Notes under the pieces: model-generated
Told to the model about the DNA's origin: nothing
What the model saw: the letters and a program-made list of their open reading frames with translations, nothing else
Databases searched by the model: none
Source of the DNA: Candidatus Saccharimonadia bacterium
GTDB taxonomy: Bacteria; Patescibacteriota; Saccharimonadia; Saccharimonadales; Saccharimonadaceae
DNA: 48,018 nt
Reading direction: 5' to 3'
Assembly (NCBI GenBank): GCA_023257815.1
Contig: JALRBJ010000007.1
Location: 1 to 48,018, forward strand
Shown here: in pieces, positions 1-5,917 of the stretch
How positions within the stretch are numbered: the stretch's first letter is position 1
Layout of the letters: each line of letters begins with the position of its first letter
Translations under genes and position numbers: made by a program

Positions 1-2138
<2,138 letters not shown>

Positions 2139-2142
<4 letters not shown>

Positions 2143-3668
2143 TGCTTGGCTTCCTTAGTTTCTGATTTTTTAGAGTCATCTTTAGATTTTTTTGAATCAG
2201 ACTTTTCTTCAACGGGTGGTTCGGCTTCTACCTGTTTTACCTCTTCGATTTTTTTGGCACCAAATTGCTCAAGAAGTTGAGCCTCCAGTGCATCGTACTG
2301 ATCTTCGCTGCCAACTTGCTTTGCTACTTCTTTAACAGCTTTTCGCAAAGCAGTTACGTCGATTGCTCTGTCGTCGGTAGGTAGCATTATGGTTTCGAGC
2401 ATAAGTTGTTGTTCAACAAGGCTGAATAGTTCCTCCGGTGTTTGCCCCAAAGCCTGATAAAGGTGCTTACCGCGTTGTAAATCAAGTCGAGTTTCGGCTG
2501 ATAATTGTGATGAGAAGTGGCTGAATTCCTCGGCTTGTTTGTATTTGGCAAGCGCCTTGAATAGGGCGGTTGAAAGCTGTTTTTGCCGCCTAGTTTGTGC
2601 CTGACCGCCCACGCGACTCACCGATAGACCAGCGTTTACGGCTGGTCGGATACCCTTACGAAAATAGCCAAGATCGAAGATAATCTGGCCATCGGTAATA
2701 GACATAATATTGGTTGAAAGGTATGCGGTGATATCGTCGTTTGGTGTTAGTACGACTGGTAAGCTAGTAAGGGTTTTTTCGTTTGTTAATAACTTTCCGG
2801 CTCGTTCTAGCAGTGAAGAGTGGGTGTAAAAAATGTCACCAGGATAAGAGTCGCGACCAGGATCAACCTCTTGAAGTAGGCTTAACTGACGGTAGCTTTC
2901 GGCGTGGCTACTTAAATCGTCATATATGATGATTACATCACGGTTGCCGTTATACCATAGCTCTTCCGCCATCGCACAAGCGGCGTAGGGTGCCAAGTAG
3001 CTCTGCGTAAGTGAATCGAAGATATCGGCCATCACCACGATAGTATTACTCATGGCACCTGACTCATTGAGGCCGCGTAGTAATCGTTCAACATCTACCT
3101 TACGTTTACCAATTAATACATAGACAACAATACGTTCAGTATTTTGTTGATTGGCACTTAGCTGGCTTAAAAAGGTACTTTTACCAGACTTTGAGTCACC
3201 TAGGATTGCGATACGCTGGCCTAACACGATAGGGAAGAAGCTATCGACTGCTGTAACACCGCTTGCCAGCTGCTCGTCAAGCATCTTCCTGTCCATGATG
3301 CCTGGTGCGGGTGTGAAAATACCGGATTTTTTACTGGCCTTAACCGCACCTTTGCCGTCAAGTGGTTGGCCCATTGGATTCACCACACGGCCAATCAAAC
3401 CCTCACCAACTGGTACGCTTAATACATCATTTTCAACTACCGCTAATACTCCAATTGGTAGCTCTTCAGTGTCAATGTTATATAGAATCACGCGGTTACC
3501 ATAGGCTTCACGTACTAGGCCGCGCTGGCCATTCTCGAATAGTATCTGTGCACCAATACGTACACCTTCTAAGCCTTTTACTTCAACCAAAAAGCGGTTT
3601 ACTGCGGTTACTTCGCCAGTTAAATTATCGGCTTCGACAAGCTTTTGAAACTGAGAGTTATCAAACAT
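2139..3668 (-). CDS. atpA: F1-type ATPase alpha subunit, with variant P-loop and charged tail
   Basis: This is the non-catalytic nucleotide-binding subunit of F1, 509 residues. Conserved alpha signatures are present: GRVVNPMGQPLDGKG (93-107), GRDSYPGDIFYTHSSLLERAGKL (from 271), and SVSRVGGQAQT with the arginine finger R352 that reaches into the beta active site. Three points are odd. The P-loop is GDSKSGKST (157-165) instead of GDRQTGKT. The roughly 25-residue N-terminal extension that normally binds subunit delta is absent. A tail of about 35 residues rich in Lys, Glu, Asp and Ser (from KKIEEVKQ) follows the normal end. The start overlaps the atpH stop by 8 bases. The alpha identity is firm; the variant P-loop and tail suggest specialisation. 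Confidence 0.94.
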
Positions 3669-4146
3669 TAACTAACACCTCTGAAAACCGCGTGTTTGAT
3701 TCAAGCAGCTTACGCCTAAATGACCAATCGTGAATATGGCTGCCATATGCCACAACGAGGCCACCCAGAATGTTGCGATTTAGTCGAAAACTCACCAGTA
3801 TGTTCTGGTTTAATTCTTTTCTGCACCATGCAACCAGCTTTTTTTTAACATCACCTGACGGAATAGCCGCTAGAGTAATCGTAATCGTGGGGGCGGATTT
3901 CCTGTAGGCTTCAAGTGCCTCCAGTAGCTCATCGATTGAGGCTTGGGTCATTGGCTTGCCCGCACTCCAGGCTCTAATAATTTGAGTTGCGTCTTCGGAT
4001 AGAATAGGCTGAGCACTTGTGGACTTTCCGGCTACTTTTTGTTTGATGAGTTCGCGCGAGGCCCAGTTGCTATAACTTTGTACGTCGCGTAGTATAATCG
4101 CCAAATCTTGTGAAGAAGCGACACTATCGGGCATTACAAGCTTCAT
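3661..4146 (-). CDS. atpH: F-type ATPase delta (OSCP) subunit
   Basis: This 161-residue protein is the stator subunit that links the b subunit to the top of F1. The family signature is near the C-terminus: NRNILGGLVVAYGSHIHDWS, matching the usual DPSLIGGIVVRVGDKVIDGS pattern, followed by FRRKLLE. The N-terminal helical domain is weakly conserved, as is typical. The start (ATG at 4146) overlaps the b-subunit stop by ATGA, and the stop overlaps atpA. A delta and a b subunit together imply a peripheral stalk, although no subunit a is encoded nearby for that stalk to anchor. Confidence 0.88.
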   Translation of the reverse strand: MKLVMPDSVASSQDLAIILRDVQSYSNWASRELIKQKVAGKSTSAQPILSEDATQIIRAWSAGKPMTQASIDELLEALEAYRKSAPTITITLAAIPSGDVKKKLVAWCRKELNQNILVSFRLNRNILGGLVVAYGSHIHDWSFRRKLLESNTRFSEVLVNV

Positions 4147-4841
4147 GTTTTTGATCCTTGCCTTGGCATGGTGGTCTCGGTTGCCGATTGAATAAGACTA
4201 GCTTTGTTAGCTTCTAGGGTTGCTAGTAGGTAATCGCTTTGAGCTCCTAGATCGACATCATGACCAAGAGTCTCGAGTAAAAAGCCTAGAACTGCGTCAT
4301 TCATTTTATTGTTTAACTGATTAGTTAAATTTTCTTTTTGTACCGCAAAGCTTTGATCCATCTCGGCTTCGAGCACGGCTTGACGTTGAGTAAGCTTAGC
4401 ATCAAGTTCAGCTTGGCGTACGGCCAAACTTTTTAATATTTCAGTCTGTTGGGTGACGATTTGCTCCTGAGCTCCGGTGAGTGAGCCTTGAGTAGTGCTG
4501 CGAATATCGGCTACGTTGGCCTTGAATAGCTTAATCTCGTCATCAAGCACTTCACCGCCAAACTTTTCGAGTAGCTTGTTGAGCTCTGTTGTAGTGTCAC
4601 CAAGATCGTGTTGGAGTTGTAGGGCAGAACGATTTACGATCCCTTGGAAATTTGCCTCGGCTTGCTTGGTGATTCTTTCGCGGGCCGCCGGCGAAACGGG
4701 CGCCACTTCACTTGCAGTAGCCTGTGTGGCTTGCTTTTTCGCTTTACTACGTCTGTGCTCCGCGAAATACTGCACGGCCAACGTAACCACCACGCCTAGT
4801 ATAAAGGCGTTTATGACCAAAAAGATTTGAAGAAGACTCAT
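4143..4841 (-). CDS. atpF: F-type ATPase b-like stator subunit (long form)
   Basis: One N-terminal membrane segment (about residues 4-26, FLVINAFILGVVVTLAV) is followed by a long, charged, heptad-rich coiled coil, which is the architecture of subunit b. At 232 residues it is longer than the usual 155-175. The ATG at 4841 is preferred over the GTG at 4850 because it leaves a 16-base gap after the upstream stop, holding a purine-rich GCGGAG/GGTGGG stretch. The C-terminus (LLETLGHDVDLGAQSDYLLATL) is a compact helical end. The gene lies between the c-like gene and delta, where b belongs. The assignment rests on architecture and position more than on residue identity. Confidence 0.75.
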   Translation of the reverse strand: MSLLQIFLVINAFILGVVVTLAVQYFAEHRRSKAKKQATQATASEVAPVSPAARERITKQAEANFQGIVNRSALQLQHDLGDTTTELNKLLEKFGGEVLDDEIKLFKANVADIRSTTQGSLTGAQEQIVTQQTEILKSLAVRQAELDAKLTQRQAVLEAEMDQSFAVQKENLTNQLNNKMNDAVLGFLLETLGHDVDLGAQSDYLLATLEANKASLIQSATETTMPRQGSKT

Positions 4842-4857
4842 GCCCACCACGCTCCGC

Positions 4858-5691
4858 TCACAACTTTGTTAACACCAGATAAATTGTTACTAATCCAACT
4901 CCTAGAATACCAAGTACAAGCCCAGAAAGTTGTATCAAATCACGATAAATCGCTGATTGACTTAATGGATTACGTCCAACCGATATAATACTGGAGCGAA
5001 TCATAGAGTAGATTAAGCTAGCTACAATAATGAGCATAATCAAGAAAATGGCACCAGATATCAAGATGGGTACAGTGCCTACTTCTTTACCGGCAAGACT
5101 ATTGGCAACATTTTGTAAGGCTGCTGGTACGATTGTTTTCTCTGGCTCTTTAAAATAGTAAGCAACGTTAACGAGTACTGGCACCTCGCCAACTTTAACT
5201 TTTTTTTGATTGCCGTCAGTATCTTTATAGGATTCTTCACGTACGTTAGTCATGTCTCCTTGAGCCACTCCTACAACGCGGACATTGGCACTTGCGCGCA
5301 TGCCTACGCCTTTGAACGGTGATCCTGTTATGTGGTCGCCACGCACCACTGGACCGTTGACATCGCTAACCAGTACCGGTAGCGTGCCAGTGGTTGCAAC
5401 TTGTACCTGGTTGTCCTGGCCACTAGAAAACGTAAGCAACGAACTGCCCGAAGCGATCACCACGCCGAGTAGATTATCTACGTTGTTGCTTTCGGAAGCC
5501 ATTACGATATCAGTCTGATCATCCAGCACACTGACGAGTGAGCCAATCGAAAGTTTGTCCTTCGTGGTGTAACTTTCAGATATGGCGGTAACTGCAAAAA
5601 CTGATGAAGGCAACGCGACAAGTCCAATCAAAAGAAGGCAGATGTAAAGAATCTGCACCCTAGTTTGCCTCAGACCCCCAAAAAATCTCAT
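4858..5691 (-). CDS. Exported ectodomain protein with C-terminal c-subunit-like hairpin lacking the carboxylate
   Basis: This is the first gene of the ATPase operon, 277 residues. Residues 12-33 are a signal peptide or anchor. Residues 34-195 form a beta-rich domain with repeated phrases such as GTLPVLVSDVNGPVVRGD and GVGMRASANVRVVGVA, predicted outside the cell. Two membrane helices follow (about 207-229 and 252-274), joined by a polar loop with GRNP at 239-242. That hairpin resembles subunit c, whose loop reads GRNP or ARQP and whose second helix carries the ion-binding Glu or Asp 18 residues after the Pro. Here that position is L260, and the helix has no acidic residue. The predicted topology (termini outside, loop inside) matches a c subunit that could touch gamma. 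What I see is a c-like hairpin without proton chemistry; a coupling role to F1 is inference. It could also be an unrelated two-helix anchor. Confidence 0.6.
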   Translation of the reverse strand: MRFFGGLRQTRVQILYICLLLIGLVALPSSVFAVTAISESYTTKDKLSIGSLVSVLDDQTDIVMASESNNVDNLLGVVIASGSSLLTFSSGQDNQVQVATTGTLPVLVSDVNGPVVRGDHITGSPFKGVGMRASANVRVVGVAQGDMTNVREESYKDTDGNQKKVKVGEVPVLVNVAYYFKEPEKTIVPAALQNVANSLAGKEVGTVPILISGAIFLIMLIIVASLIYSMIRSSIISVGRNPLSQSAIYRDLIQLSGLVLGILGVGLVTIYLVLTKL

Positions 5692-5788: not shown

Positions 5789-5899
5789 ATGAAACATTCA
5801 AATCGCGAGGCTGGATTTACATTGCTTGAGCTGTTTGTGGTGATCGTGGCAATTATTATCCTACTGCTTATTGTGTTCTTTATGCGTGCAGGTAATTAA
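5789..5899 (+). CDS. 36-residue type IV prepilin-like peptide
   Basis: This short ORF encodes MKHSNREAGFTLLELF followed by a hydrophobic stretch and ending FFMRAGN. The first part is a textbook class III (type IV pilin) signal: a short basic leader, a Gly-Phe junction (G9/F10), then TLLE with the glutamate at mature position 5, and a single hydrophobic helix. A normal pilin has a globular head of 60 or more residues after the helix; here only about five residues remain. It may be a minor structural subunit, a regulator of pilus assembly or a decayed pilin. It lies divergently from the ATPase operon and 18 bases before the nucleotidase gene. Saccharibacteria are known to carry type IV pili. 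Confidence 0.55.
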   Translation: MKHSNREAGFTLLELFVVIVAIIILLLIVFFMRAGN

Positions 5900-5917
5900 T
5901 CCTAGAATTATTAATCT

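Follow-up and report, generated by a model that had tools for sequence, protein, structure and literature searches.

A second F1-like ATPase in Saccharibacteria with a c-like subunit fused to an exported domain: possibly a motor for surface fibres

Introduction

What can an F1-like ATPase do if the slot of subunit c in its gene cluster is occupied by an exported protein that lacks the ion-binding carboxylate? This question is raised by a locus of a Candidatus Saccharimonadia bacterium, whose 0.86 Mb genome is 98.5% complete. The window, i.e. the whole stretch of 48,018 nucleotides analysed here, is contig C34 of this genome. A reading made from the sequence alone (sequence-only reading) had proposed that one of its proteins, here designated X, combines a surface-exposed domain with a c-subunit-like hairpin and might pass motion from F1 to the surface. 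Below, the cluster, X and their relatives are described, and the possible functions are weighed.

The F1-like cluster of the window

The minus strand of the window carries, in this order, X, b-like, delta, alpha, gamma and beta genes, whose ends overlap from the b-like gene onward. X (4858..5691) has an ATG start and encodes 277 aa. The b-like peripheral stalk subunit (4143..4850) begins with GTG 7 bp past the X stop codon. It has no Pfam b match; its family aligns with canonical b in hhalign (91.9%, E 7e-7; controls 0.1-0.2%). A delta/OSCP-like subunit (3661..4146; Pfam OSCP 3e-6, over the cut-off; hhalign to canonical delta 96.4%) is followed by F1-like alpha (2139..3668) and gamma (1285..2142; Pfam ATP-synt 6e-27) and by an F1-like beta (2..1288), which is truncated by the contig end. 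Across the cluster, Pfam finds OSCP, ATP-synt_ab and gamma. Alpha retains its P-loop GDSKSGKS and the arginine finger SVSRVG, beta the P-loop GGAGVGKT and the catalytic Glu (GVGERIRE). Alpha matches TIGR00962 with 8e-119, which is under the cut-off, and in NCBIfam it remains far under the cut-offs of both the canonical models and the mycoplasma alpha models (306.6 vs. 600 for NF045863, 267.1 vs. 520 for NF045936).

The same genome also has canonical a and c on contig C35 and canonical alpha and beta on contig C18. This means, the window cluster is a second F1. The sole subunit a gene (PF00119) of the genome sits with canonical c on that other contig and not in the X cluster. Just upstream of X, on the opposite strand, a short pilin-like reading frame (GFTLLELFVVIVAIIILLLIVFF) is located at 5790-5900 (plus strand). 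A similar frame is present in another locus (L039, 7700-8002, minus strand).

X combines an exported domain with a c-like hairpin

X begins with a signal peptide or first hydrophobic segment (residues 1-33, 5593..5691), for which AlphaFold2 predicts a helix at residues 5-25 and which is probably cleaved at an AxA-like site at VFA. The hydrophobic segment is found in 92 of 92 homologues, and an AxA-like site behind it, judged by eye, in most of them. This agrees with the export proposed in the sequence-only reading. Residues 34-175 (5167..5592) form the exported domain, which, according to X profile matches, is kin to a domain within giant fibre proteins. This large domain is conserved across Patescibacteria. 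The full-length AlphaFold2 model has low confidence (pLDDT 52.5), with values below 50 at residues 27-102 and strands at 103-174. No significant Foldseek match was obtained with this model; several of the matches belong to phages, where they decorate the capsid or act as head fibres. The phage minor capsid family PF23982 weakly matches 6 of 27 sequences. Pfam and NCBIfam searches with X alone yielded no useful match.

The C-terminal part (residues 206-276, 4864..5076) is a helical hairpin. For residues 186-277, AlphaFold2 predicts two helices (206-240 and 242-276) connected by a one-residue turn, with a pLDDT of 86.7. A fold other than a tight helical hairpin, which the sequence-only reading had named as a refutation, was not predicted. 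The predicted topology comprises a signal peptide, the exported domain, a helix leading in, the loop GRNP (residues 239-242, 4966..4977) and a helix leading out, which places the loop on the cytosolic side, as suggested before. Among 92 homologues, the loop reads GRNP in 82, SRNP or ARNP in 7 and otherwise (IRNP, GRTP, GSNP) in 3. Eighteen residues after Pro242, where subunit c carries its ion-binding Glu/Asp, X has Leu260 (4912..4914). In the 89 of 92 homologues readable at this position, the residue is never acidic (only L, I, F, V, M, A, G and T), so that the proposed loss of the carboxylate holds for the family. The additional claim that helix 2 has no acid applies to its membrane core (252-276) and fails at its cytosolic end, where Asp251 is located.

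A profile comparison with subunit c had been suggested. In hhalign, 92 X hairpins from across Patescibacteria align with c at 88% with a score of 33.0, compared to 23.2 +- 2.4 (maximum 28.1) for controls in which the flanking columns were shuffled and GRNP was kept; three of the c sequences were those of E. coli, Bacillus PS3 and spinach. With Saccharibacteria c sequences alone, 86% and a score of 32.0 were obtained. When GRNP was masked, the score was 11.7 versus 7.4 +- 1.1 in controls. In an earlier run with 48 homologues, the score came mostly from GRNP and shuffled controls were close. A Foldseek search of the hairpin against 350,542 PDB chains ranked c-ring chains first, and they make up most of the best 50 (probability up to 0.97), with E-values all >=0.6 and hence individually not significant. 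The best match of the X profile among PDB sequences is a subunit c, ungapped through the hairpin (E 0.89). PF00137 matches X only in two genomes and below the Pfam cut-off (E 0.0075 and 0.037). The hairpin is c-like by predicted fold and, more weakly, by sequence. With subunit c (PF00137), X shares the two-helix hairpin, the GRNP loop, the predicted location of both ends outside and the slot before b. In contrast to c, it has no carboxylate and about 200 additional residues outside. It is highly probable that X descends from ATP synthase subunit c.

Distribution of X and the X-type F1

X is present in 36 of 61 Saccharibacteria-type genomes. The X-type F1 occurs in the same 36 and in 0 of the 25 others (Fisher 1e-17, a value inflated by the relatedness of the genomes, as holds for all Fisher values in such comparisons). 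Of 380 Patescibacteria genomes, 151 were matched by the X profile, many of them solely via the N-terminal domain within giant ORFs; full-length X was found in at least 57. F1 genes are present in 43 of 43 X-bearing Patescibacteria genomes examined. The only exception regarding the X-type F1 is G166, where a canonical F1 but no X-type F1 was found. Its X (L165:3288-4088) has the loop GSNP and sits on a 5.8 kb contig (C62); the cause may be decay or a gap in the assembly. Homologues in genomes devoid of F1 genes had been named as evidence against a connection with F1. None were encountered among the 36 relatives and the 43 Patescibacteria genomes: Candidate genomes with 'X without F1' were rejected, as a second F1 is present elsewhere in them. 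A weak match in G025 was discarded as well, as it comes from several small T4SS pilin-like proteins in a row, which are not homologues.

The order X-b-delta-alpha-gamma-beta-epsilon is conserved across Patescibacteria with local variations. Of 87 X genes, 53 are directly followed by b. The proposed linkage to atpF is supported, but the adjacency is not strictly constant: In three relatives (G037, G043, G054), X and the fibre gene described below are gone from the F1 cluster and X adjoins a giant fibre gene. In one genome family (L146-L149), two different X genes flank a single F1 cluster. Three X copies located away from F1 (L074:1095-1955, minus; L075:11622-12500, plus; L083:9065-9934, minus) carry a Glu in helix 1, which in each of them precedes the loop Arg by exactly 17 residues. 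This position corresponds to residue 24 of E. coli c, at which an Asp is functional in second-site mutants.

Catalytic residues, stator and ion-translocating parts

The X-type complex has alpha, beta, gamma, delta and epsilon as well as the catalytic residues of F1Fo, with epsilon observed in relatives, since the window contig stops within beta. P-loop and catalytic Glu of beta are kept in 65 of 65 sequences; this set was picked by the Glu motif, so that only the P-loop provides an independent test. In an alpha set with a few mislabelled beta sequences among its members, about 92% retain the arginine finger. X-type epsilon comprises 82-110 aa versus 135-149 aa in the canonical subunit and consists of the beta-sandwich only, without the C-terminal arm. 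Profile comparison connects both delta and the b-like protein with their canonical counterparts, which indicates that a stator is retained. In outgroup-rooted trees, canonical alpha forms a fully supported clade apart from X-type alpha, and the canonical beta clade includes a single sequence with an X label. These trees do not fix the order in which X-type and canonical subunits branched.

The X-type F1 is the only F1 in 22 genomes with a completeness of 92-100%, several of which consist of a single contig. Subunit a was found in 0 of 22 and canonical c also in 0 of 22, while positive controls matched. Ten of the 22 contain a third, weak PF00006 match of about 105-109 bits, which may be Rho. 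Since the hairpin core is acid-free, ion-driven synthesis by the X-type complex is very unlikely. That the complex works without ion coupling is well supported.

Surface fibres are linked to X

A fibre gene in convergent orientation usually lies behind the cluster in Saccharibacteria and encodes 310-415 aa. Its product has a tail in the cytosol, a single TM segment, a beta-rich stalk and a head of about 110 aa, which also terminates several giant ORFs. The head occurs in 32 of 36 genomes with X versus 1 of 25 without X. In three of the four headless X genomes (G000, G029, G039), the contig stops before the F1 cluster is complete. No fibre gene was found in the genome of the window either, where the contig breaks off within beta. 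The co-occurrence agrees with the link to a surface structure suggested before. In addition, the exported domain of X recurs within giant fibres (profile matches in L062_0 with an i-E of 1e-19, L060_12, L091_2, L093_5 and L095_8), where it precedes stalk and head near the C-terminus. As X adjoins a giant fibre gene when it is off the F1 cluster and its domain recurs in such proteins, X is tied to fibres independently of F1. Many Saccharibacteria clusters also encode a secreted protein of 240-260 aa after the fibre gene (L039:15062-15841, plus, and equivalents), which belongs to no Pfam family.

A giant protein lies within three genes of 36 of 87 X genes, which is a raw count without a matched random-locus control. 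The fibre linkage is strong in Saccharibacteria, and other Patescibacteria have different giant proteins as neighbours of X. Five of these giant ORFs outside Saccharibacteria (L169:1-2770, L151:1-2641 and L159:1-2291, all minus; L155:666-9119, plus; L181:4266-9665, minus) start with a MerR-type helix-turn-helix (PF00376, 2.9e-14 in L169), usually followed by a TM segment and a long part rich in Gly, Ser, Thr and Asn. Those of L155 and L181 additionally have a Peptidase_S74 domain. A cytosolic head of DNA-binding type on a surface fibre is odd.

Discussion

The findings suggest that the X-type motor works on surface fibres rather than making ATP. We moderately favour the view that X is a c-derived rotor-ring subunit of a second F1-like ATPase that hydrolyses ATP, moves no ions and drives a surface crown and fibres. 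In the membrane, several X hairpins would assemble into a ring, with their GRNP loops attached to gamma and to the short epsilon on the cytosolic side, while the stalk of b-like protein and delta would keep alpha3beta3 still. As subunit a and the carboxylate are absent, ATP hydrolysis could only turn or strain this ring against the b-delta stator. The motion would be transmitted to a crown of X outer domains and from there to membrane-anchored beta-fibres, small or giant, resulting in attachment, surface movement or fibre reset. The exported domain of X may act as a base plate or a cap for fibres. What we infer from the evidence above is that a ring forms, that it contacts gamma and rotates, and that fibres are the target of its work. 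The wider proposition that across Patescibacteria an ATP-driven rotary motor cranks a crown of c-derived subunits and thereby moves giant fibres is tentative and, on balance, doubtful.

The main alternative, which we consider unlikely, is that the F1-like complex powers export, folding or anchoring of the fibres. X would then serve as a platform in the membrane, with an outer domain that caps fibres or guides them, and a mechanical output at the surface would not exist. FliI/SctN ATPases energise type III secretion, and type III ATPase models do match the window alpha, although more weakly than F1 models. The recurrence of the X outer domain inside giant fibres near the C-terminal head and the joint relocation of X and fibre genes would fit as well. 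However, a full stator of b-like protein and delta along with a c-like hairpin is retained, and export ATPases are not known to have these parts. Furthermore, no channel gene was seen in the X-F1 cluster, and many fibres carry their own TM or signal segment.

X might also be a static anchor or assembly scaffold for F1 at the membrane, with an intracellular or regulatory output of the ATPase. Rotation cannot be demonstrated by sequence alone, and no partner is known that would hold b against the ring when subunit a is absent. The fully conserved catalytic residues in 65 beta sequences, the missing inhibitory arm of epsilon and the phylum-wide conservation of a large exported domain nevertheless make such a purely structural role improbable. 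The least probable reading has the complex translocate ions, as an ATP synthase or a pump, by way of an unusual ion site and a subunit a that escaped recognition. The helix 1 Glu in L074, L075 and L083 might provide such a site, but these three copies are unlinked to F1, no readable X has an acid 18 residues after the Pro, and subunit a is missing in all 22 genomes with the X-type F1 only.

The rotor-ring reading has a functional parallel. In mycoplasmas, F1-like X0 ATPases are known as Type 3 (MIB-MIP) and Type 2, the G1-ATPase of M. mobile gliding (PMC3369863, PMC12994834, PMC11864180). The Type 3 ATPase is required for a surface antibody-cleavage system, and a Walker-A mutant of beta loses function (PMC12994834). 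By analogy, this result supports the principle of the X-type mechanism, not its details. The mycoplasma systems are the closest functional parallel, with other membrane subunits. Like the X-type complex, they are second F1-like ATPases besides a true F1Fo, lack the ion subunits a and c and are tied to surface proteins. Their clusters encode a 12-TM protein and no b, c or delta recognisable by sequence, whereas delta, b-like and c-like proteins are present in the X-type cluster. Protein 5 of mycoplasmas has the same layout as X, a comparison based on described layout alone. Compared to canonical F1Fo ATP synthase, the X-type complex has homologous subunits and the same b-delta-alpha-gamma-beta-epsilon order with X where c stands. 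It differs in the absence of subunit a, in a c-like subunit that is acid-free and carries an exported domain, and in an epsilon without C-terminal helices. The X-linked giant fibre proteins resemble the giant surface proteins of Patescibacteria such as Vampirococcus, very long membrane proteins that are thought to form fibres and mediate attachment (PMC8080830). In the literature searched, which excluded most subscription journals, neither a connection between such genes and an F1-like cluster nor a paper on an 'F1-like ATPase' in Saccharibacteria or Patescibacteria was found.

Part of the F1 genes in Patescibacteria belong to an X-type complex without ion-translocating parts, which in 22 genomes checked is the only F1. 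X represents a case in which a c subunit was probably redirected when it lost a single carboxylate and acquired a single exported domain, while the stator was kept. If the proposed mechanism is true, a rotary machine unrelated to flagella arose from ATP synthase by loss of ion transport. In bacteria thought to be host-attached, it would be an ATP consumer acting at the surface.
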